A DNA stretch of 38,211 nt, taken from contig JAKSAX010000315.1 in the NCBI GenBank assembly GCA_022361395.1, positions 1 to 38,211 on the forward strand, in the 5' to 3' direction. A program made the position numbers and the translations under genes. The notes under the pieces were generated by a model. That model saw only the letters and a list, made by a program, of their open reading frames with translations, searched no databases and was not told where the DNA came from. This stretch comes from Desulfobacterales bacterium. Its GTDB lineage: Bacteria; Desulfobacterota; Desulfobacteria; Desulfobacterales; Desulfobacteraceae. Below, in pieces: positions 17,404 through 28,017 of this stretch. The first letter of the stretch is position 1; each line of letters opens with the position of its first letter.

Positions 17404-18714
17404 TTAGTTGGTTGCGGCCTTAGGGCCTTCTTTTACGGTTTTCGCCATCAGGTAAAAACCCACGGCGCCCAGAAGTCCGTATACCAGGATAAACCCGATA
17501 AGGGAGACAAATACCTGGGAAGTCGTAATGGGAGATGCTGCTTCAGCAGTTTTCATCAGTCCGTAAACGATCCAGGGCTGGCGTCCGACCTCGGTAACCA
17601 TCCACCCCATTTCAATGGCAATATAGGGCAGGGTGATGGACCAGAGCATGATCTTAAGATAGGTAGGGCTTTCCATGAGTTTGTTCCGCCGGAACCACCC
17701 GTAAACGGTGAGCAGGATAAACAGGGTACCCAGTCCCACCATGGTTCTGAAGCCCAGGAAGGTGAGCAGTACAGGCGGACGTTCATCTTTGGGAATATCC
17801 CGCAGGCCGACCACTTCGGCATTAAAATCGTGGAATCCCAGGAAACTTAAAAGACCTGGGATTGAACCGATTTCAACGAGGTTCTTCTCCTGGTCTTCAC
17901 TGGGAATGGCAAACATGACAATGGGAGCCTGGGTCTGGGTTTCCCAGTGGGCTTCCATGGCAGCCAGCTTGGCCGGCTGGGTTTTGGCTACGTTGACCCC
18001 GTGCATATCGCCGGAGATGCCAAGCCAGATGGAGGTCACAAGACCGACAACCAGGCCGATTTTAAAGGATTTCTGGAAAACGTCCAGGTGCTGCTTTCTC
18101 AAGAGGTGGTAGGCAGAGATGCCCATAATGAAGAAGGCGGCCAGGAGCAGGCCTGCCGGTAACATGTGAAGGATTTCAAGAATACCGTGTTTGTTGAATA
18201 CAACAGCTGAAAAATCTGTGAGTTCGGCACGGCCGTTCCTGATGGCGTACCCAACGGGATTCTGCATAAACCCGTTGGCGGTGAGGATCCAGACGCCTGA
18301 CAGGTTACTGGCAAAGGCAATCAGGCACATGACCAGGGCATGGGCCTTGGCAGACAACTTTTTCCAGCCGAAAATCCATACACCGATAAGGGTGGATTCA
18401 AGGAAAAAGGTCACTGAGGCTTCAATGGCCAGCAAAGATCCGAATACATCACCCACATACTCGGAGTACCTTGACCAGTTTGTACCGAACTGGAATTCCA
18501 GGGTGATCCCCGTGACCACCCCCAGGGCAAAGTTGATTAAAAAAAGCTTTCCCCAGAATTTTGTCATTCGCAGATAGACTTCTTCACCGGTCCTTGCATA
18601 CTTCATCTCCATATATGCAATGATGGTGGTAATGCCAAGGGTCAGGGGAACAAAAAGAAAATGGAACATGGTGGCTGCGGCAAACTGCAGTCTGGATAGA
18701 AATACCGGATCCAT
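17404..18714 (-). CDS. cydA: Cytochrome bd quinol oxidase subunit I
   Basis: A 436-aa membrane subunit carrying haems b558, b595 and d. The start is set at 18714 (MDPVFLSRLQ), since GGAGG is just upstream; an in-frame TTG four codons earlier overlaps that site. Family marks: a ligand histidine in AAATMFHFLFVP near residue 19, the LEFQFGTNWSRYSEYVGDVFG block, and GRQPWIVYGLMKT. At 436 aa it is shorter than the roughly 520-aa E. coli subunit, which means the short form of the periplasmic quinol loop. It lies 60 bp downstream of a small winged-helix gene; a near-perfect sigma54 site precedes that gene. Confidence 0.96.
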   Translation of the reverse strand: MDPVFLSRLQFAAATMFHFLFVPLTLGITTIIAYMEMKYARTGEEVYLRMTKFWGKLFLINFALGVVTGITLEFQFGTNWSRYSEYVGDVFGSLLAIEASVTFFLESTLIGVWIFGWKKLSAKAHALVMCLIAFASNLSGVWILTANGFMQNPVGYAIRNGRAELTDFSAVVFNKHGILEILHMLPAGLLLAAFFIMGISAYHLLRKQHLDVFQKSFKIGLVVGLVTSIWLGISGDMHGVNVAKTQPAKLAAMEAHWETQTQAPIVMFAIPSEDQEKNLVEIGSIPGLLSFLGFHDFNAEVVGLRDIPKDERPPVLLTFLGFRTMVGLGTLFILLTVYGWFRRNKLMESPTYLKIMLWSITLPYIAIEMGWMVTEVGRQPWIVYGLMKTAEAASPITTSQVFVSLIGFILVYGLLGAVGFYLMAKTVKEGPKAATN

Positions 18715-18774
18715 AAACTCCTCCAAAGTTAAGGTTATAATAAGGTTAGTTATTTTATTTCAATAGCAGCCAGA

Positions 18775-19015: not shown

Positions 19016-19032
19016 AGCAAGTAGCGTGCCAT
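19016..19032 (-). promoter_or_regulatory. sigma54 promoter for wHTH-cydAB
   Basis: On minus it reads ATGGCAC-GCTAC-TTGCT, which matches the TGGCAC-N5-TTGCW consensus at every specified base. Predicted start near 19005, about 60 nt before the wHTH ATG. Two 9-bp direct repeats 165-200 bp upstream could bind an enhancer protein. Confidence 0.7.
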
Positions 19033-19332: not shown

Positions 19333-19977
19333 TTATGCTTTTTTCGTGGCTTTGTTTTCCCATTCCTGTATTTTCGTGGTTTCGTAGATCTCTTCCCAGC
19401 CGGTAATCATGCCTGAAATATGACTGAACAGGGAATGGCCTGTGGTGGTCATGTAGACATGGATAATCAGGAAGTTGACCAGCAGAAACGCCACAAAGGT
19501 GTGGGCAATGGCCACAACGGAGAGATCCATACCGCCTGGAATGTAGTTGTACAGGTAGTATAACAATCCGGTGATCATCTGCACGGGCAGCAGCATGGCT
19601 GAAATCCCGAGGTAGGCGATCCGCTGCAGGGGGTTGTGCTTTGCCCCTTTGGATTTCTGAACCGGGTGTTCCCGGCCTTTGAAAATCCCGTAGGCATAGT
19701 AAAGAACCACATCGAGCAGCTTTTTGGTGGTGGGTATATACTGTTTCCACTCTCCGGTGGTCAACAGCCAGAAAACAAAAAAGGCAAACATGATCAGCCA
19801 GGCAAGGCCTGTAAAATTATGAACGGTCACAGCTGTCTTAAACCCCAGAAAGGCATAGGTGCCGTGTACCTCAAACCCGGTGACCAGAAGTATAATGATC
19901 ATCAGGGCCTGGAGCCAGTGCCAGAGGCGTTCAAACCGTGTGTAAAGATATACCTTTATCAGTTTTTTATCATTCAT
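19333..19977 (-). CDS. Cytochrome b (formate dehydrogenase gamma / thiosulfate reductase-like)
   Basis: A 214-aa integral membrane cytochrome b561-type protein with four to five membrane segments. It begins VYLYTRFERLWHWLQALMIIILLVTGFEVHG, where the ERLWHW histidine is a typical haem b ligand; further candidate ligands are VHNFTGLAW, IAHTFVAF and IIHVYMTT. These proteins exchange electrons between the quinone pool and a periplasmic partner. It follows the octaheme cytochrome by four bases, so the pair probably forms a quinol-linked complex. Last gene of the operon; a hairpin follows. Which direction electrons flow cannot be read from the sequence. Confidence 0.9.
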   Translation of the reverse strand: MNDKKLIKVYLYTRFERLWHWLQALMIIILLVTGFEVHGTYAFLGFKTAVTVHNFTGLAWLIMFAFFVFWLLTTGEWKQYIPTTKKLLDVVLYYAYGIFKGREHPVQKSKGAKHNPLQRIAYLGISAMLLPVQMITGLLYYLYNYIPGGMDLSVVAIAHTFVAFLLVNFLIIHVYMTTTGHSLFSHISGMITGWEEIYETTKIQEWENKATKKA

Positions 19978-19981
19978 TGCG

Positions 19982-21652
19982 TTAATCCTCTCTTCCGTTC
20001 CGGGTAAAGAACCTGCCCAAACCGTGAAGCATGACCCCGATTAAGGCACCCAGAACAGCAATCATGCCGATGGTGTCCAAAAACGGGCTTTTATCGCGGC
20101 CCGGCAGATAGATGCCGGTGAGGTTTGCCAGGCGGGAATTCTCCCTGACATGGCACTCCGTGCAGTTTAATGCGTTTTTTCCCGGTGCCACCATATGGGT
20201 AATGGGAAAGGCATAGGTGGTCTCTACAAAGTCAAATTCACCTGAATAGGGAACATCCAGTGTCTTATTGCCCCGGGTGATGGCATCGTTCATGTCAAAG
20301 GTTGCCCAGAAGCCCTTGGGGCCTGAGAGAACAGGGGCGACCAGCCGGTTGTTGACCTTGTCGTAGGGCTGTTTTCCCCTGTGGATTTTAAAGGGATGGA
20401 TCCTGGCATCCGGATCTTCCTGTTCACCGATGGGATGACTGACCTTCACGATGCCGGCGGGATCTATTTTATCCTTGATGCCGATGTTGGAAAATGAACC
20501 GTTGTACCAGAAATATTCCGGCTCTACATTCTTTTCCCATGTAAACTCCCCCTTGATGGATTTAAAGGTGGGCTTACCGAACTCCCCTTTGGTTACATAG
20601 GGCTTCCCGTCTTTCAGTTCCCCTGCCTTGGTCCAGTCCCATGACATTTTTGTGGGATTTACCCTAGCATATTCAGGGATGTGGCAGGACTGGCAGGCGA
20701 CTTTATCCACATGGTCGTTCATCTTTGAATCTGTTTTATGGGGCAGGGTTCCATGGCAGGACTCGCAGGTGATCTTGGTGGCCATGTCATCCTCGATCAG
20801 GCTTTTGCGTTCTGCCGATGCGGGACGGGTATACAGCCTTCCGGCAATATTATGCTTGACCGTGGTGTGGCACCGGGTGCAGGTAAAGTCCGCGCCTTCG
20901 GCAGCCATATGAACATCCAGCATCCTGTTGGGCTGGGCCAGGGAAGTGTCCAGGTCCCCGTGCTTTACCCCGTCACCGCCGCCGCCTTTAAAGTGGCATT
21001 CCCCGCAGTGATTCCGCTGGGGCATGGTGATTTTTTTAACTGCGGATTTTATTTCTCCCTGAAGGTCGCTGACAATCTCCCTGGTTTCGGGATCGTCATC
21101 CTCCAGAAAGGCTTGGATATCACCAAAAGCCTCATTGTAATTGTAGTTTTCACCACCGTGACAATTCAGGCAGTTTACCCCTTCCTCGGTGCCGTTCCAG
21201 CCCACATGGCAGCTGAGACAGCCCTTGTCTTCCATGGCATTGCCTGAAATACAGAAGTTGTTCACGGCATGGCCGGCTTTGCCGTTCATGATTCCCGGGG
21301 TGTTGGATTCAACCTTCCAGGTCCAGTGGATGGTTTTTTCAAATTGCGTGGACGCATCGGTGTGACAGGATAAACAGGCTTGGGTGATCTGCTCGCCCGA
21401 GGTGAAATCCTTGTCCAGGGCATCCATTTTTGAATGATCCGTGGTGGTCCAGCGCTTATTGGATCTAACGGCCTGTTTTGCCAGCTTCATCCCCAGCGCC
21501 TCTCCGCTCACTCCGGTCTCTGTGGCGGCAAATCCCGCCCCCTGGCTTAACACCAGGACCAGTACTGCCGTAATTGCGCCTATCCAGGCAAGCCGGCAAA
21601 CACCTGGTTCGTTACTGCCGGACTTGTTCTTACCGGCATCTTTCTTTCCCAT
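19982..21652 (-). CDS. Octaheme c-type cytochrome, tetrathionate reductase (OTR) family
   Basis: The start is set at 21652 (MGKKDAGKNKSG) because GGAGGAG lies just before it; this gives 556 aa. An N-terminal hydrophobic segment (about residues 20-45) exports the protein, and a second near the C-terminus (IGMIAVLGALIGVMLHGLG) anchors it. Between them are eight CxxCH haem sites: CLSCH, CLSCH, CLNCH, CGECH, CTRCH, CESCH, CQSCH, CTECH. Shewanella OTR, the reference member, reduces tetrathionate, nitrite and hydroxylamine in vitro and has an unusual CxxCK at its active haem. All eight here are ordinary CxxCH, so chemistry may differ. Periplasmic. Flanked by the cytochrome b and rhodanese partners. 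Confidence 0.92.
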   Translation of the reverse strand: MGKKDAGKNKSGSNEPGVCRLAWIGAITAVLVLVLSQGAGFAATETGVSGEALGMKLAKQAVRSNKRWTTTDHSKMDALDKDFTSGEQITQACLSCHTDASTQFEKTIHWTWKVESNTPGIMNGKAGHAVNNFCISGNAMEDKGCLSCHVGWNGTEEGVNCLNCHGGENYNYNEAFGDIQAFLEDDDPETREIVSDLQGEIKSAVKKITMPQRNHCGECHFKGGGGDGVKHGDLDTSLAQPNRMLDVHMAAEGADFTCTRCHTTVKHNIAGRLYTRPASAERKSLIEDDMATKITCESCHGTLPHKTDSKMNDHVDKVACQSCHIPEYARVNPTKMSWDWTKAGELKDGKPYVTKGEFGKPTFKSIKGEFTWEKNVEPEYFWYNGSFSNIGIKDKIDPAGIVKVSHPIGEQEDPDARIHPFKIHRGKQPYDKVNNRLVAPVLSGPKGFWATFDMNDAITRGNKTLDVPYSGEFDFVETTYAFPITHMVAPGKNALNCTECHVRENSRLANLTGIYLPGRDKSPFLDTIGMIAVLGALIGVMLHGLGRFFTRNGRED

Positions 21653-21678
21653 AGCTCCTCCCGTTGGAATAGTGTGAT

Positions 21679-21708
21679 GCCCTGTGCAGCCCGGTTGCCG
21701 CACAGGGC
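21679..21708. terminator. Intercistronic hairpin before the octaheme cytochrome gene
   Basis: GCCCTGTGC and GCACAGGGC form a 9-bp stem with a 12-nt loop between the small secreted protein stop and the octaheme cytochrome start on minus. It has no T-run, so an mRNA processing or attenuation role is likelier than full termination. Confidence 0.5.
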
Positions 21709-21717
21709 GCGTGATGC

Positions 21718-22068
21718 TTATTTACAGGTGGCAGGGGTTGGGGAATCCGCTGCAAAACTATAGAAGTAAGAGTAGATATCCAGGATATCCTTGTCCTTGG
21801 CATTTGCCCATTCCTGGTCGCATCCGAATGCACTGAAATCCCTGCCTTCGAAAACAGCTGTCCATTCGGCCATTTTTTTATCTGCCGGACTGACTTTTGG
21901 AGAGGCGGACTCAACCGCGCCTCTTTCAAAACAGGCCTTTACCAGCTTACGATAGGTATATTTGCCCTTTCTTTTATTTCCGGCAGGACCTTCTGCGGCA
22001 AAGGCCGCTCCCACGGGACCCAGGGTGAACATTACCAGAACAGCAGCAATCATCATTTTCTTAAACAT
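21718..22068 (-). CDS. Small secreted protein, cytochrome-like but lacking a CxxCH motif
   Basis: The start is set at 22068 (MFKKMMIAA), where AAGGAG is six bases upstream; an ATG nine codons earlier overlaps that site. The 116-aa product has a clear signal peptide ending VGAAFAA. The mature part begins GNKRKGKYTYRKLVKACFERG and ends IYSYFYSFAADSPTPATCK. This layout resembles small monohaem cytochromes, with KACF where CKACH would be expected, so the haem site seems lost. Three cysteines remain. Sits between the triple rhodanese and the octaheme cytochrome in the operon and is probably periplasmic. The cytochrome ancestry is inference. Confidence 0.7.
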   Translation of the reverse strand: MFKKMMIAAVLVMFTLGPVGAAFAAEGPAGNKRKGKYTYRKLVKACFERGAVESASPKVSPADKKMAEWTAVFEGRDFSAFGCDQEWANAKDKDILDIYSYFYSFAADSPTPATCK

Positions 22069-22105
22069 TTTTATCTCCTTGGTGAGGTTTTTCATTTTAA
22101 ATCTG

Positions 22106-23197
22106 TTAGTTTTTCTTCAGGGTATAGGAGCCGTCGGCTTTATAATCGATGGTGGCTTCCACGTAATAAACATCAAGCTCCGGCCTGACATCTTTGACCA
22201 TATAGTATCCTTCACCGCTTCTGGCGCCTGTGGAGCAGACAAAGACAAGGGGTTTGTCAGAGGGCAGGTCTTTGATCCTGGGTTCCAGGTCCTCCACCGG
22301 GATATGGCGGGCGGTTTTGAAATGGCCTTTTTCGAACTCATCTGCATCCCTTACGTCGATGAGGGTAACGGACGAGGGATTTTCAGCCAGGATCTTTTTG
22401 AACCGGTCAAGGTCAATGGAGCCTTCCACATCACCTGCTTTTACAGCCACAGCTTCGCCGCCGGTGCCGAATTGCTTTTTCCACGCCGGATACCCTGTGG
22501 TGAATACGGAAACGTTTTTGTAACCCATGGCAATGGCTTTGGCTGCAGACTTATGGCTCAATTTGCATTTAAGGCCGCCGCAATAAAAAATAATCGGTGT
22601 TGACAATTCCCTGGGCAGCTTTCCTTTAAGGGCGTCAAATTTGGAAAAGGGGATGCTGATGGCAGTGGGGATGTGGCCCTTATCATATTTGGGTTTCTTG
22701 GGCCTGGCATCCACCACCAGGGTTTTATTTTCCGCAATCTGAACGGCAACCTGCTCTGCGGTGATGGCCGGATAGGCGCCCGGCTGTTTTTTATACTCGG
22801 GGAACCCTTTGGCAAACACCTTTACATTGGTGTAGCCGAGAGCCCTGGCTTTTTTAGCGGATTTATGGCTGAGCTTGCACTTTACGCCGCCGCAGTAAAA
22901 GATAAGGAGCGCGCCTTTGTCCTTGGGCAGCATATCCGTCTTTTTATCAAATTCGGAAAAGGGGATACTGACGGCACCGGGAATAAAGCCTTTAACGTAT
23001 TTGGTTTTGTACGGCCTGGAATCGATGATCATTACATCCTCGGCCATGGGAACGGACATTTTTGAAATTACATAGTCAACATCCACGATATCGTCGAACA
23101 TCCAGGCCTCTTTTGCCTGGGAGGATGATACCATGAACAGGATAGCCAGACCTGTAACCAGGCCGAGAATCAATGATTTCTTTGTGAAGGGTTTCAT
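22106..23197 (-). CDS. Periplasmic triple-rhodanese protein
   Basis: A 363-aa secreted protein: signal peptide 1-28 (cut after SSSQA), then three rhodanese domains. Domains one and two are near-duplicates with active loops CGGVKCKLSHKSA (Cys102, Cys107) and CGGLKCKLSHKSA (Cys206, Cys211), each with a second cysteine. Domain three is more conventional, with Cys321 in CSTGARSGEG. All three keep the D-x-R and H-IP marks. Rhodaneses carry sulfane sulfur as persulfide, so this may feed or relay sulfur in the periplasm to the octaheme cytochrome encoded two genes downstream. First gene of the operon, with a sigma54 promoter about 80 bp upstream. Confidence 0.92.
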   Translation of the reverse strand: MKPFTKKSLILGLVTGLAILFMVSSSQAKEAWMFDDIVDVDYVISKMSVPMAEDVMIIDSRPYKTKYVKGFIPGAVSIPFSEFDKKTDMLPKDKGALLIFYCGGVKCKLSHKSAKKARALGYTNVKVFAKGFPEYKKQPGAYPAITAEQVAVQIAENKTLVVDARPKKPKYDKGHIPTAISIPFSKFDALKGKLPRELSTPIIFYCGGLKCKLSHKSAAKAIAMGYKNVSVFTTGYPAWKKQFGTGGEAVAVKAGDVEGSIDLDRFKKILAENPSSVTLIDVRDADEFEKGHFKTARHIPVEDLEPRIKDLPSDKPLVFVCSTGARSGEGYYMVKDVRPELDVYYVEATIDYKADGSYTLKKN

Positions 23198-23278
23198 TCT
23201 GTCTCCTAAAAATATGGGTTTTTATTCAGGGATGAGCAGATCCCTGCATCGTTTTTATCTGTTATCTGTTATCGTATG

Positions 23279-23295
23279 AGCAAAGGGTGTGCCAA
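23279..23295 (-). promoter_or_regulatory. sigma54 promoter for the rhodanese-octaheme cytochrome operon
   Basis: On minus it reads TTGGCAC-ACCCT-TTGCT, a full match to TTGGCAC-N5-TTGCT. Predicted start near 23268, giving a leader of about 70 nt before the rhodanese ATG. The adjacent divergent gene encodes a sigma54 activator. Confidence 0.8.
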
Positions 23296-23401
23296 TGACG
23301 GATATGAATATTTTCAAGTTGTTAACTATCTGATATTGCAACAAAATAATGCGTATTGCGTGGCGGGGGTAATTATGGGTTTAGCCGGTTTTGTTGCCTT
23401 G

Positions 23402-23419
23402 GTGTTAATTCTGTGTTAA
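23402..23419. promoter_or_regulatory. Candidate activator site, GTGTTAA-N4-GTGTTAA
   Basis: Two exact GTGTTAA units 11 bp apart, one helical turn, 106 bp upstream of the minus-strand sigma54 site and 35 bp before the activator's own ATG. The same element, with 16 of 18 bases identical, occurs at 25371-25388 before the other sigma54 promoter, in the same orientation relative to its promoter. Suits an enhancer for the activator, with possible autoregulation. Confidence 0.65.
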
Positions 23420-23454
23420 GTATGGTGCTAATGTGGTTAACAGGAGGAGATATT

Positions 23455-24849
23455 ATGGATATCGGCGGCCAGTGGCGTCCCATCATTGATTCGGTCCAGG
23501 ACGGCATTATTATTGTGGATGCCTACGGAAATTTCATCGCGGCCAACAGTTCCGCCCAGCTCATGACCGGCTATTCAGAGGCAGAGCTTAAGGGGCAATC
23601 CTGCCGGCTGCTGAATTGCACCGGGTGTGAAATCAGGGGGGAGGGGCCGGGAAAAGAGTGGTGCGGCCTGTTTTCAGCCGGAATGATCAGGGATAAAAAA
23701 TGTTTGATCACCTCAGCCTCCAACAGGACCATTCCCATTGTAAAGTCCGCCACTGTCCTGTCCGGGAAAAATGGTGAAATCATCGGTGCCGTGGAGACCC
23801 TTAAAGATGTTTCGGAAAATATCCACTATAAAAACGAACTGGCATCCATCCGGCGGATGTACCACATTGATGACGGATTCCACGGGATCATCGGCCGGAC
23901 ACCTGTGATGATGAACCTTTATGAGCACATTGAAAGCGTAGCCGCCCTGGATACCCCGGTCATGATCCTGGGGGAGAGCGGTACCGGAAAGGAGATGGTG
24001 GCCAAGGCCCTTCACGAGACCGGAAACCGTTCGGACAGGCCTTTTATCAAGGTAAACTGTGCGGCCCTGAGCGAAAGCATCCTGGAGAGCGAGCTTTTCG
24101 GTCATGTCAAAGGGGCATATACCGGGGCGGACACCGACCGGGTGGGACGGTTTGAAGCAGCCCACAGGGGAACCATATTCCTGGATGAGATCGGGGATAT
24201 CCCCCTGTCGGTTCAGGTTAAATTGTTGCGGGTACTGGAAGAGCGCATGATCCAGCGGGTGGGGGAAAACAGGTCCATCCCCGTTGATGTCCGGATCGTC
24301 ACAGCCACCAACAAAAACCTTGACGCCCTGATTGCCGACGGCAAGTTCAGGGAGGATCTTTTTTTCCGGATCAATGTCTTTCCCATAACCTGCCCGCCGT
24401 TACGGCACCGGAGGGATGATATCACCCTGATTATCCAGCATTTTATTACTGTTCATGCGGAAAAAACCGGCAAGAATATCCTGGGATTCACCCCTGAAGC
24501 CATGCGTTTCATGGTGGCTTATCCCTGGCCCGGAAATATCCGGGAACTGCGTAACACGGTGGAGTATGCCTTTGTCCTGGCAAAGGGAAAAGGTATACGG
24601 CCGGAGCATCTGCCCGAGAAAATTCACGGCACTGCTTTTTTTACGCCGGAACCTGAGGCCCCGCTGCCTGAGCCGCCTGCTGCCGGTTCCACCACGGTGA
24701 CGGTACACCGGACCCAGCGCCAGGAGCTGATCGATGCCCTTCACAAGGCCGGGGGAAATCAGACCCGGGCTGCAGAGATCTTAGGCGTTTCCAGGATCAC
24801 CGTGTGGAAACGGATGAAAAAGTACAATGTAAAGGTAAAAAGCGTCTAA
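23455..24849 (+). CDS. sigma54-dependent transcriptional activator (PAS - AAA+ - Fis HTH)
   Basis: The start is set at 23455 ([10 protein letters not shown]), with AGGAGG upstream; the open frame extends back 33 codons through the regulatory site. The 464-aa product has an N-terminal PAS domain (1-120), an AAA+ domain with Walker A GESGTGKE (173-180), the sigma54 contact loop GAYTGA (220-225, a Phe-to-Tyr form of GAFTGA) and Walker B IFLDEIGD (241-248), and a Fis-type helix-turn-helix at the end. The PAS domain has a cysteine cluster, Cys50, 55, 58, 70 and 83, suited to a redox or iron-sulfur sensor. No receiver domain, so it senses directly. Likely controls the flanking operons. Confidence 0.93.
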
Positions 24850-25205
24850 AGGCTTATACAGGCCGCATCACAGGCAATATCTATGAGTTCTGCCGCCGTG
24901 GCCATTCTGCAGGATTCGGCCAGGTCCTTCTCGCCGATAAACCTGGATTGGGCACAGGGGGTGCAGACAAGGATCGGGACCTCATGGGCCTGGAGATAGG
25001 CCAGGGAGTCATCGGCAGAATCCCCGGTGGCTGCTTTCAGGTTTTCCGCCACACCCTGGCGGGCCAGATATACCCCGTCATCCAAAAGGAAGACCGTTAC
25101 ATTTTTATCCTTTTTCCGGGCAACCGTTGCCAGAAAGAGTCCCCGGGTTGCCCGGTTGGGGTTATCGGTTCCGCAGGAGATGGTTATAAGAACGTTATCC
25201 GTCAT
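24846..25205 (-). CDS. DsrE-family protein
   Basis: A 119-aa cytoplasmic protein with the DsrE/DsrF-like fold: VLITISCGTDNPNRATRGLFLAT at the N-terminus, VFLLDDGVYLA in the middle and a CTPCAQSRF loop near residue 83. The loop cysteines may carry persulfide in a sulfur relay, or the fold may simply bind a small ligand. Its end overlaps the sigma54 activator's end by 4 bp, tail to tail. AAGGAG precedes the ATG. It is divergent from the thioredoxin-like operon, so both may use signals in the 25206-25585 gap. The context supports a sulfur-handling role. Confidence 0.85.
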   Translation of the reverse strand: MTDNVLITISCGTDNPNRATRGLFLATVARKKDKNVTVFLLDDGVYLARQGVAENLKAATGDSADDSLAYLQAHEVPILVCTPCAQSRFIGEKDLAESCRMATAAELIDIACDAACISL

Positions 25206-25370
25206 TTGATGCTCCTTTCTTGAAAGTGGAACAAAGCCACAGGTGAGATTTTCCCTTCAGGTCATAAGCTATCTTGAAATGATTTGTAAAGCCACACTGT
25301 GGTAGTCTTTTTTATATCCTGGTTTTATGATACTTTGGGCGCTTAACGGAATTATCCGCAGGGGATGAGG

Positions 25371-25388
25371 TTAACACATGATTAACAC
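25371..25388. promoter_or_regulatory. Candidate activator site, TTAACAC-N4-TTAACAC
   Basis: Two exact TTAACAC units 11 bp apart, 118 bp upstream of the plus-strand sigma54 site. It is the reverse-complement counterpart of the element at 23402-23419, so relative to each promoter both point the same way. The two inter-promoter distances (106 and 118 bp) differ by about one helical turn. Confidence 0.65.
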
Positions 25389-25506
25389 CTGACGGATGAA
25401 CCGCAGAGGTGAAGGTATTAATCATTTAAAAAAAACAGACCTAACAATCGAATAATCAAGGGGTTTGGACGGCGGATCATCAGGCACGGGTTCGACATTT
25501 CAAATC

Positions 25507-25523
25507 CTGGCATTATCTTTGCT
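25507..25523 (+). promoter_or_regulatory. sigma54 promoter for the thioredoxin-like / ferredoxin operon
   Basis: Reads CTGGCAT-TATCT-TTGCT, with a full -12 match and one difference in -24 (T for the last C). Predicted start near 25534, about 50 nt before the ATG at 25586. Confidence 0.7.
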
Positions 25524-25585
25524 GTTAACGACATAACGGAGACAAGGCCCGGGTTTTGTCTTCACCGGTAAGTAAAGGACTTAAA

Positions 25586-26149
25586 ATGAAAAAAGAGAAT
25601 ATACTGGTTGTGGCCCTTGTTGCAATTGCCCTTGGCGGAATTTATCTGTTCAATGCCATGGACTCCGGGGGAAGAGGTGGTAGTGACGCCCAAACCCTTG
25701 CGGTTGCTGCCCAGGAAAAAACAGAGGGTGCCTCTGCCGGCGGCACAATGTCGCCTGCCGGAGAGTATTCAGGCATAGGCTGGAAGGACTATACCCCGGG
25801 TATGGCATTGGCCAGAAAAGAAAACAAAAGTATTTTTCTCTATTTCCATGCCCCCTGGTGTACCTATTGCACAAAGCTGAAGAAGACCACTTTCAGGGAT
25901 AAGCAGGTGCTTGCCTATCTGGAGGAGAATTTCATCAGCATCCAGGTAAACACGGATGAAAATCAGGCCCTTGCCAATCAATGGCGGGTAAAGGGGCTGC
26001 CCACCATGTGGTTCCTGGAATCAGACGGCGGGAAAATCGACAGCATGCCGGGGTATGTTGAGGCAGGAAGACTGCTTCAGATCCTTAAGTACATTCATAC
26101 CAAAAGCTATACTGACATGGAGTTCAATGAGTTTGTAAAACAAGGATAG
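25586..26149 (+). CDS. Membrane-anchored thioredoxin-like protein
   Basis: The start is set at 25586 (MKKENILVVA) because it opens directly into a hydrophobic anchor; an in-frame start ten codons upstream is possible. The 187-aa product has a membrane segment at 5-23, a Ser/Gly/Ala-rich linker, and a thioredoxin fold in the periplasm with active site APWCTYCTKL and cis-Pro motif VKGLPTMWF. The sequence style is that of DsbD-gamma or thiol-disulfide reductases. It may reduce disulfides or carry sulfur between periplasmic partners of this module. First gene of the plus-strand operon with a sigma54 promoter about 65 bp upstream. Confidence 0.88.
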   Translation: MKKENILVVALVAIALGGIYLFNAMDSGGRGGSDAQTLAVAAQEKTEGASAGGTMSPAGEYSGIGWKDYTPGMALARKENKSIFLYFHAPWCTYCTKLKKTTFRDKQVLAYLEENFISIQVNTDENQALANQWRVKGLPTMWFLESDGGKIDSMPGYVEAGRLLQILKYIHTKSYTDMEFNEFVKQG

Positions 26150-26179: not shown

Positions 26180-27160
26180 ATGAAAGGCAGAACACGTATG
26201 ACCCGAAAATTATCCCGGCGCGCCTTTTTAAAAGGCTCCCTCACCGCAGCAGCCTCTGCTGCGGCGGTTACCCCCCTGGCCCGGGCAGCTGATGCTGCTG
26301 CCGGACCCTCTGGCGAGCCCCTGGTAACCGTCATTAATATTGCCGATTGTACCGGATGCCAGGAGTGCGTCCATGCATGCCGCGAATCCAATGCAGGAAA
26401 ATTTCCCCGCCCCCAAAAGCCCTTTCCCAGAATGTTTCCTGACCGGGTACCGGTGGAGGACTGGTCTGACAGAAAAGATGTTTCAGACCGTCTGACCCCC
26501 TATAACTGGCTGTTTATCCAACAGGCATCAGCCGTAATTAACGGCGAAGAGACTCTATTGACCATCCCCAGGCGATGTATGCACTGCGTCAATCCCCCCT
26601 GTGTAAAACTCTGCCCCTGGGGAGCTGCCAAGCAGGAGGTGAACGGGTTGTCACGGATTGATTCCGATATCTGCCTGGGCGGTTCCAAATGCAATAAAGT
26701 CTGTCCCTGGGATATTCCCCAGCGCCAGACCGGTGTGGGCCTCTACCTGGATATACTTCCCGGTTTGGCCGGGAACGGCGTAATGTACAAGTGCGACCGT
26801 TGTTTTCAGAAGATTGAAAACGGTGAGACGCCGGCATGTATTGATGCCTGCCCCGAGGGGGTGCAGACCATGGGACCGAAATCCGAGATGGTGAAAAAAG
26901 CCAAGGCCATGGCTAAAGAGATGGACGGCTATCTTTACGGGCTGGATGAAAACGGGGGAACCAATACTATTTATGTGTCACCGGTTCCCTTTGACCAGCT
27001 GGCCATGGAAACCGGTAAAGGCGTCCCCCATTTGGATCCGGTGGAAGACCGGATGGCACAGGGAACCAACCTGGCACGGGCTATGATAATTGCACCTCTT
27101 GCAGGGGCGGCAGCGGCATTTGGTAAATTCTACAAAGGGATGAAGGAGGAGGATAAATGA
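26180..27160 (+). CDS. Tat-exported four-cluster ferredoxin (HybA/PhsB-like)
   Basis: A 326-aa periplasmic iron-sulfur protein. It has a twin-arginine signal RRAFLKG followed by an alanine-rich hydrophobic stretch. Cysteine sets follow for four 4Fe-4S clusters: CTGCQECVHAC, CMHCVNPPCVKLC, CLGGSKCNKVC and CDRCFQKI with CIDAC. This is the layout of electron-transfer subunits in hydrogenase-2, thiosulfate and tetrathionate reductases. A short hydrophobic C-terminus (MIIAPLAGAAAAFG) could anchor it as in HybA. No catalytic molybdopterin or hydrogenase subunit is adjacent. It overlaps the following membrane-protein gene by 4 bp (ATGA), so the two should form a quinone-linked unit. Confidence 0.9.
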   Translation: MKGRTRMTRKLSRRAFLKGSLTAAASAAAVTPLARAADAAAGPSGEPLVTVINIADCTGCQECVHACRESNAGKFPRPQKPFPRMFPDRVPVEDWSDRKDVSDRLTPYNWLFIQQASAVINGEETLLTIPRRCMHCVNPPCVKLCPWGAAKQEVNGLSRIDSDICLGGSKCNKVCPWDIPQRQTGVGLYLDILPGLAGNGVMYKCDRCFQKIENGETPACIDACPEGVQTMGPKSEMVKKAKAMAKEMDGYLYGLDENGGTNTIYVSPVPFDQLAMETGKGVPHLDPVEDRMAQGTNLARAMIIAPLAGAAAAFGKFYKGMKEEDK

Positions 27161-27591
27161 AAATCAAAGGGAAATTGTACGGAATCATCCTGCTCTTCAT
27201 AACCCTGACCGGATTTGCCCAGATGCCGATTTTCAAACGGTACTATACTGCCGATATTCCCGGACTGGGCTGGCTGGCGGAGTTTTATGTCATCCACAGC
27301 CTCCACTATATACTGGCATCCGCACTTCTCTGCCTGGCCGGATATTCAGTTGCCGGTTTTTTGCTGAGTAAAAGGGGGCTTTCCTCCCTGACCTTCTGGG
27401 GCGGGGTCAAGACCTGGCTTATTCTGGGGCTGGTTGTCTCCGGGGGATTGATGGTGGTGAGAAATCTGCCGGGGATATATTTTTCCCATGTGGCTATTTA
27501 TTTAATGAACCTTTCTCATCTGGGGTTCTGTGTGGCCCTGCTCATGGTTTCCGGATTCACCCGGGCAGCCGGCAAACCCTGGGTGCGCTGA
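27157..27591 (+). CDS. Small four-helix membrane protein, probable cytochrome b partner of the ferredoxin
   Basis: A 144-aa protein with about four membrane segments. Histidine pairs near membrane faces (VIHSLHYILA near residue 47 and YFSHVAIYLMNLSHLGF near 112-122) are arranged as haem b ligands would be. It therefore resembles the small cytochrome b subunits that connect periplasmic ferredoxins to the quinone pool, but the sequence is diverged and I would not name a family. The start overlaps the ferredoxin stop by 4 bp. Last gene of the operon; the transcript ends at a hairpin 17 bases later. Confidence 0.8.
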   Translation: MKIKGKLYGIILLFITLTGFAQMPIFKRYYTADIPGLGWLAEFYVIHSLHYILASALLCLAGYSVAGFLLSKRGLSSLTFWGGVKTWLILGLVVSGGLMVVRNLPGIYFSHVAIYLMNLSHLGFCVALLMVSGFTRAAGKPWVR

Positions 27592-27607: not shown

Positions 27608-27648
27608 AAAAGACCGGCAGGTGGTTACCTTAAAAAGCCGGTCTTTTT
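27608..27648 (+). terminator. Intrinsic terminator nested in the 3' end of the response regulator gene
   Basis: AAAAGACCGGC (27608-27618) and GCCGGTCTTTT (27637-27647), an 11-bp stem with an 18-nt loop, followed by T. The right arm and part of the loop lie inside the last codons of the convergent response regulator gene. It ends the thioredoxin-ferredoxin transcript and may also act on minus, where A/T flanks are symmetric. Confidence 0.8.
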
Positions 27649-28017
27649 GAGTTTTTCCATGATCACCTCCTTGTTAAAGGGTTTGATCACATAGCCGTCA
27701 CACTTGCCCACACAGGCTTTGACTGTTTCAATATCCGAATGGGAGGTGACCATGAGAATGGTGGCCCGCTCTTCATCGTCCAGGCCCCGTTCAGCCTCAA
27801 GTATCCTGATCTGGGTCAGGACCTCGGTTCCGCTGATATCGGGCATGGAAATATCAAGGGTAATCAGATCGTAAAGTTTCCACTCTTCCAGTGCTGTTCT
27901 TACTGCACTCAAGGCTGCGCTGCCGTTCTGGACCCCCTCACAGACACCCAGTTCGCTTACGCTTTTCATCATTTTTTTTCGGCTGACAACTTCGTCATCC
28001 ACAACTAGGATACGCAT
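27625..28017 (-). CDS. Stand-alone CheY-like response regulator
   Basis: A 130-aa single receiver domain. Conserved residues are present: Asp7/Asp8 (VVDDE), phosphoacceptor Asp55 (ITLDISMPD), Thr91 and Lys112 (IKPF). No output domain, so it works by protein contact, as CheY or a phosphorelay shuttle. No kinase is adjacent; the hybrid kinase at the right end of the window has an HPt and could in principle feed it. It stands alone, converging on the ferredoxin operon with a terminator overlapping its end. Confidence 0.9.
   Translation of the reverse strand: MRILVVDDEVVSRKKMMKSVSELGVCEGVQNGSAALSAVRTALEEWKLYDLITLDISMPDISGTEVLTQIRILEAERGLDDEERATILMVTSHSDIETVKACVGKCDGYVIKPFNKEVIMEKLKKTGFLR

Follow-up and report, generated by a model that had tools for sequence, protein, structure and literature searches.

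In the PspF-pspA and NorR-norVW systems, the activator gene lies divergent from its target, and the enhancer sits in the shared region beside the activator gene. The locus analyzed here, part of a stretch of 38,211 nucleotides from a Desulfobacterales bacterium (hereafter the window), resembles them in having a putative enhancer in such a shared region, where binding can also affect the activator's own promoter. Unlike in those systems, a second predicted target operon is found on the far side of the activator gene with its own copy of the element, and the sites have the appearance of phased direct units, in contrast to the palindromes of PspF and NorR.

The closest counterpart is treated in sections of Kazakov et al. 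(2015; PMC4641369) in which DVU3142, an enhancer-binding protein (EBP) encoded divergently from the octaheme genes ohcBAC, was predicted to control these genes from sigma54 promoters in six Desulfovibrionales genomes. As in those sections, the gene for a one-component EBP is here divergent from octaheme complex genes, upstream of which lie a sigma54 promoter and predicted EBP sites. Unlike the regulon described there, octaheme and Fe-S genes are split between two operons that flank the EBP gene; genes for a triple-rhodanese protein, a small secreted protein, a thioredoxin and a membrane protein are added; and two unlinked operons are also predicted as targets. When the Desulfomicrobium EBP encoded beside its octaheme gene (locus L158) was used as query, 69 sigma54 activator-like proteins were matched in the genome under study, the best of them, in this one direction of search, being the EBP of the window (E 1.1e-135; next, 9.9e-97). 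From the layout and this best match, the predicted regulon is regarded as an enlarged Desulfobacteraceae counterpart of the already predicted DVU3142/ohc regulon, which it closely resembles in gene content and layout. In addition, the legend of Fig. 4 in the same paper presents a DVU2956 site of three half-sites, with EBP binding by gel shift; the site predicted here likewise has more than two half-sites, but regulator and target differ. Literature searches on direct-repeat EBP sites and on the motif letters gave nothing on TTAACAC-N4-TTAACAC among the matches listed, which is not proof of its absence from print.

The two near-identical sites of the window are very probably docking sites for a regulator that switches on two neighbouring operons of respiratory genes, and the layout of sites and regulator was kept in many related sulfate reducers. 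Elements A and B were located at the coordinates claimed in a previous sequence-only reading (Table 1), with 16 of 18 bases identical and a unit spacing of 11 bp in both, and the sigma54 activator gene that this reading had placed between them was recovered as well, starting with ATG. Distances were measured from the element to the TGG of the -24 box; the values in Table 1 replace the 106 and 118 bp given previously, whereas the same relative orientation at both promoters stood. Scored against TGGCAYRNNNNTTGCW, the -24/-12 sites of operons A and B, which are of the TGGCAY-N5-TTGCW type, reached 12/12 and 11/12, respectively.

Table 1. Features of the EBP locus, in coordinates of the window.
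Feature	Positions	Strand	Remarks
Cytochrome b561-type membrane subunit, OhcC-like	19333-19977	minus	
Octaheme c-type cytochrome, OhcA-like	19982-21703	minus	TIGR04315, 503.5 bits vs. curated cut-off of 375
Small, probably secreted protein, operon A	21718-22095	minus	conserved with octaheme genes
Protein with three rhodanese domains	22106-23197	minus	first gene of operon A
-24/-12 of octaheme operon (operon A), TGGCACACCCTTTGCT	23279-23294	minus	107 bp from element A
Full five-unit array A	23392-23440	minus	TTAACC / TTAGCAC / TTAACAC / TTAACAC / GCAACA; unit starts spaced 9, 12, 11, 11 bp
Element A, TTAACACAGAATTAACAC	23402-23419	minus	core pair (units 3 and 4) of array A
One-component sigma54 activator (EBP), 464 aa	23455-24849	plus	PAS, AAA+ (GAYTGA), Fis-type HTH
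DsrE-family protein	24846-25205	minus	between EBP and element B; present in part of the loci
Element B, TTAACACATGATTAACAC	25371-25388	plus	
-24/-12 of thioredoxin/Fe-S operon (operon B), TGGCATTATCTTTGCT	25508-25523	plus	119 bp from element B
Thioredoxin-like protein	25586-26149	plus	first gene of operon B
4Fe-4S protein, OhcB-like	26180-27160	plus	nearest NCBIfam models HybA/HmcB, score below their cut-offs
Small membrane-protein-like gene	27157-27591	plus	last of operon B; without Pfam or NCBIfam match

Element A turned out to be part of a longer array, which ends 14 bp short of the EBP start codon in the window. Its conservation was evaluated upstream of EBP relatives (identity of 60% or more), in the 41 distinct regions that were left once duplicates and loci short of upstream DNA had been removed. 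The best -24/-12 site scored at least 11/12 in 40 of these regions, and the best pair of units at least 12/14 in 32. The gap from the pair to the -24 box was 104-109 bp in 32 of the 41 (the remaining nine ranged from 31 to 176 bp), and in most regions the pair lay 33-45 bp upstream of the EBP start codon. Over the 32 regions with a gap of 104-109 bp, columns -22 to +28 averaged 0.98 bits, compared with 0.37 bits between the array and the -24 box, and column conservation defined five units, at -21, -12, 0, +11 and +22 (spacings of 9, 12, 11 and 11 bp), the last of them GCAACA. Thus, the array, the -24/-12 site and their spacing were conserved before orthologous octaheme operons in the related genomes that the sequence-only reading had suggested searching; lack of conservation beside such operons, which it had named as evidence against itself, was looked for and the opposite was found.

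Units 3 and 4 were picked by direct-repeat score, while units 1, 2 and 5 played no part in locating the array region. The profile correlation was higher for a direct repeat (r 0.91, a value biased because units 3 and 4 were picked by that very score) than for a palindrome (0.59), and the two arrangements are hard to distinguish because GTTAAC is itself a palindrome. Units 1, 2 and 5, which were not picked by score, have the same polarity as units 3 and 4, and polarity favours the interpretation of the array units as direct repeats. In the 150 bp before 76 EBP relatives, TTAACA or TGTTAA occurred 3.05 times on average (dinucleotide shuffles: 0.29, sd 0.06), and 64 of the 76 regions had two or more occurrences. 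In five loci of the same genus, with EBPs 44-45% identical, TTTAACAC-type units were found at 10-11-bp steps before a -24/-12 site divergent from an octaheme-family gene, and in two Desulfovibrionales loci (L157 and L158; EBP 42-47%) TTAACAC was present before the -24/-12 sites.

Conservation of element B was lower. A -24/-12 site of at least 11/12 preceded the thioredoxin gene of operon B in all 30 distinct regions, whereas a pair of at least 12/14 was found in 11 of them, nine with a gap of 106-121 bp. Six more regions showed a pair of 10/14 at 105-121 bp, a score that shuffles reach 7-17% of the time. Because a good pair at the expected gap was seen in nine of the 30 regions, element B is considered real in this genome and not a universal part of the system. 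In five loci the space between the EBP and thioredoxin genes was shorter than 120 bp, with no array found in it; there, either the distant array A would have to serve operon B, or the EBP does not control operon B.

In order to evaluate whether the element follows the activator, 98 genomes (own genome included) were scanned for a composite pattern, that is, the element followed within 91-121 bp by TGGYA-N6-TTGC. This resulted in 34 matches in 23 genomes, and in none for the reversed pattern; by list comparison, 26 of the 34 were located at an EBP locus. Of the 97 relatives, 29 had an EBP orthologue with 62% identity or more, and one further relative (G014) had a broken copy. The composite was present in 20 of the 30 relatives with an EBP orthologue vs. 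2 of the 67 without (G074 and G082, which have no close orthologue), a difference with a Fisher p of 2e-11 in genomes that are not independent, owing to kinship; the co-occurrence of element and EBP is partly kinship. The remaining 10 of the 30 had no match to this pattern, which is strict. Within the genus, the composite was detected in 2 of 3 relatives with the EBP and in 0 of 15 without. Since octaheme genes are near-ubiquitous in the genus (family matches at E 0.001 in 18 of the 19 genomes searched, own genome included, 16 of them above cut-off) and the composite is found there only with the EBP, the element follows this EBP and not octaheme genes in general. A degenerate pair without the promoter part was much less discriminating: in 59 genomes it matched 13 times, with 6 of the matches at the EBP locus and 7 away from it, and its reversed control matched 4 times. 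Conversely, among 80 loci fetched by their octaheme gene, 52 had a divergent EBP relative, 3 had one elsewhere and 25 had none, 11 of these 25 with at least 5 kb of upstream DNA.

Some individual loci departed from the general picture. At one octaheme locus with no EBP within 21.6 kb (L148), a weak -24/-12 site is preceded by three TTAAC units, spaced 8 and 11 bp apart. At the locus with the broken EBP orthologue (L077, in G014), both operons and array-like upstream DNA persist. Part of a second EBP lies beside an octaheme operon in L199 (G039:C99), with its own array and -24/-12 site.

The gene between the two elements would encode, by domain criteria, a bacterial enhancer-binding protein: its translation matched the sigma54-interaction AAA+ domain (PF00158, 236.7 bits) and HTH_8 (PF02954, 47.7 bits), and contains the GAFTGA-type loop as GAYTGA. 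Five cysteines of its PAS region (C50, C55, C58, C70 and C83) were invariant in all 18 aligned EBP relatives. Among the products of operon A, the small secreted-looking protein had no Pfam or NCBIfam match at E 0.001, and three of its cysteines (C55, C92 and C124) were invariant in 15 aligned sequences; its gene adjoins octaheme genes in many loci. In four genomes of the same genus (G001, G005, G017 and G018), octaheme family matches contained one TGA in frame, attributable to selenocysteine, a sequencing error, a broken gene or a terminal stop.

Sites, promoters, a nearly fixed distance between them, conservation and co-occurrence with the activator are thus features of the DNA itself. Elements A and B are very likely upstream activating sequences for the EBP encoded between them, which would drive the two flanking operons and probably two unlinked ones. 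The layout of an EBP with two targets, as first proposed, was supported with modifications: the box is the core of a five-unit array at the EBP gene, the downstream site is less conserved, and the number of operons is probably four. There are strong grounds to propose that binding of the EBP to the array activates operon A and, in this genome, operon B. In such a mechanism, the PAS domain of the EBP would serve as the sensor. The signal may be redox or sulfur chemistry, a kind proposed because of the five conserved PAS cysteines, which hint at a possible Fe-S or thiol sensor. The Fis-type HTH would dock on helically phased TTAACA(C) units, and DNA looping over approximately 107-119 bp would allow the EBP to remodel sigma54-RNA polymerase at the -24/-12 sites of operons A and B. 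Jointly, these operons would encode electron transfer by octaheme cytochrome, cytochrome b and Fe-S proteins, with sulfur-handling partners (rhodanese and thioredoxin). The same EBP probably also drives the two unlinked operons, which encode two secreted rhodaneses and an outer-membrane barrel protein, respectively.

Since the EBP gene begins right beside array A, occupation of the array may well modulate synthesis of the EBP, most likely dampening it. Autoregulation, which the sequence-only reading had also predicted, is put forward more tentatively than activation, being plausible from this position. The -24/-12 scan of the window gave no site directed at the EBP gene, and no confident sigma70 promoter was identified (9 sigma70-like matches in 22000-26000 vs. 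4.6 expected, sd 2.4).

An alternative is that a different regulator binds the array, for instance a winged-helix response regulator of the OmpR/PhoB type, and that the EBP uses other sites. Regulators of that type classically read 11-bp direct repeats, and the unit geometry found here (7 bp plus 4 bp, with an 11-bp period) is similar to that of Pho-box-type repeats; polar direct repeats with this period, the mark of a Pho box, were indeed observed, though units 3 and 4 had been picked by direct-repeat score. Besides, several Desulfovibrio EBP motifs in the sections considered of PMC4641369 look different, with TGT/ACA half-sites 9, 11 or 12 bp apart. Nevertheless, the gap to the -24/-12 site is nearly fixed, the element follows the presence of the EBP within the genus, and variants of the same units occur with relatives of the EBP. 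Pfam scans of ten proteins encoded around the site revealed no response regulator, and a receiver-like ORF recognized by eye (27625-28017) occurs in part of the loci only, at variable distance. Control of the array by another regulator is consequently considered unlikely.

In addition to the EBP locus, the complete genome (611 contigs; 6,569,353 bases) was searched for the element. The exact TTAACAC-N4-TTAACAC pattern matched twice, on both flanks of the EBP gene. There were 4 near-matches with one mismatch and 25 with two, numbers around the chance level, since the reversed pattern gave 20 matches at up to two mismatches. Six of these 29 near-matches were inspected singly, and the other 23 were covered by the composite pattern alone. 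Two of the six, on contigs C35 and C293, had a -24/-12 site of 10/12 at gaps of 89 and 95 bp; such a promoter score alone is weak evidence, because 22 of 300 random 380-bp stretches of the window scored at least 10. A near-match on C305, with a 10/12 score at a gap of 60 bp, was set aside, and those on C581, C73 and C125 scored at most 9/12 on the matched strand. A looser composite, TTAAY-N6-TTAAY-N91-121-TGGYA-N6-TTGC, matched in four places of the genome, the same ones as the stricter composite and no others, with none for the reversed control.

The composite match on C293 (gap 95) precedes genes for two rhodanese-domain proteins with signal-peptide-like starts, and the one on C35 (gap 89) a gene for an outer-membrane barrel protein. 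It is reasonably supported, from these matches, that the regulon comprises four operons: A, B, that of the secreted rhodaneses and that of the barrel protein. Both contigs could be foreign, as the genome bin is listed with 8.89% contamination. Among 59 genomes, a single relative of the rhodanese target was found at E<=1e-25 beyond its own genome (G074, 43%), without the element. An 81% orthologue of the outer-membrane target (G011) was preceded by three degenerate 11-bp units and an approximate -24/-12 site, with a gap of 99 bp. Eight of the 34 composite matches across genomes were outside EBP loci: C35 and C293, one each in G036, G045 and G053, one each in G021 and G074, and one in G082. In G036, G045 and G053, the gene downstream of the unlinked match (gap 105) encodes a homologue of operon A's small secreted protein. 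The product of the gene after it has a coiled-coil-like N-terminus and, over its length, is 60-64% identical to the EBP-adjoining protein of loci L064, L067 and L068. No EBP gene was present among the ORFs listed beside these three matches or those on C35 and C293, and together they support regulation in trans. In G074 (L181) and G021 (L174), the composite precedes ORFs of 130 and 113 aa, respectively, with signal-peptide-like starts. The match in G082, which precedes an unrelated-looking gene, was treated as due to chance.

These matches also bear on the possibility that array A is mainly an operator of the EBP gene, used in autorepression, with element B as a partial copy and other sites activating the -24/-12 promoters. 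The closeness of array A to the EBP start codon and its better conservation with respect to element B would agree with such a role. Against it stand the gap to the -24 box of the divergent operon, which is 104-109 bp in 32 of the 41 regions, and the matches in trans that combine the element with a -24/-12 site (C35 and C293 in the own genome; G036, G045 and G053), and this interpretation was judged very unlikely. Chance likeness of AT-rich intergenic DNA was rejected with next to no probability left to it: although at up to three mismatches 1.96 matches are expected by chance in the window, which makes loose matches uninformative, the exact pair is confined to the EBP locus within the genome, the reversed composite control gave 0 in 98 genomes, dinucleotide shuffles were far below the TTAACA/TGTTAA count upstream of EBP relatives, and conservation in orthologous regions contradicts it.

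Returning to the elements as activating sequences for the EBP, we tentatively suggest, with clearly less than even confidence, that the site recognized by this Fis-type activator family is a polar array, not a palindromic enhancer, with up to five TTAACA(C) units that follow one another at roughly one helical turn (9-12-11-11) and keep a nearly fixed distance from the promoter. If so, several HTHs of one activator oligomer would align on one face of the DNA, a single array would serve divergent activation and also control the activator gene, and octaheme electron transfer and rhodanese sulfur handling would be joined in the four-operon regulon. With its phased repeats and an unusually constant distance from enhancer to promoter, the system makes a tidy test case for how such an activator holds its DNA. 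At the level of the organism, a sulfate reducer, one of its many sigma54 activator-like proteins is assigned a predicted target set and binding site, the regulon prediction made in Desulfovibrio is extended to Desulfobacteraceae, and genes whose role is unclear (for octaheme cytochrome, rhodanese, thioredoxin and outer-membrane proteins) are tied into one testable regulon.

The array was also considered as a generic companion of sigma54 promoters, an idea rejected on account of the cytochrome bd genes of the window. A perfect -24/-12 site (19016-19031, minus strand) precedes cydA (17404-18726) and cydB with no TTAAC array, and this site scored 12/12 in all 12 loci examined, window included. 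A small ORF, winged-helix-like by eye, lies between the -24/-12 site and cydA in the window.
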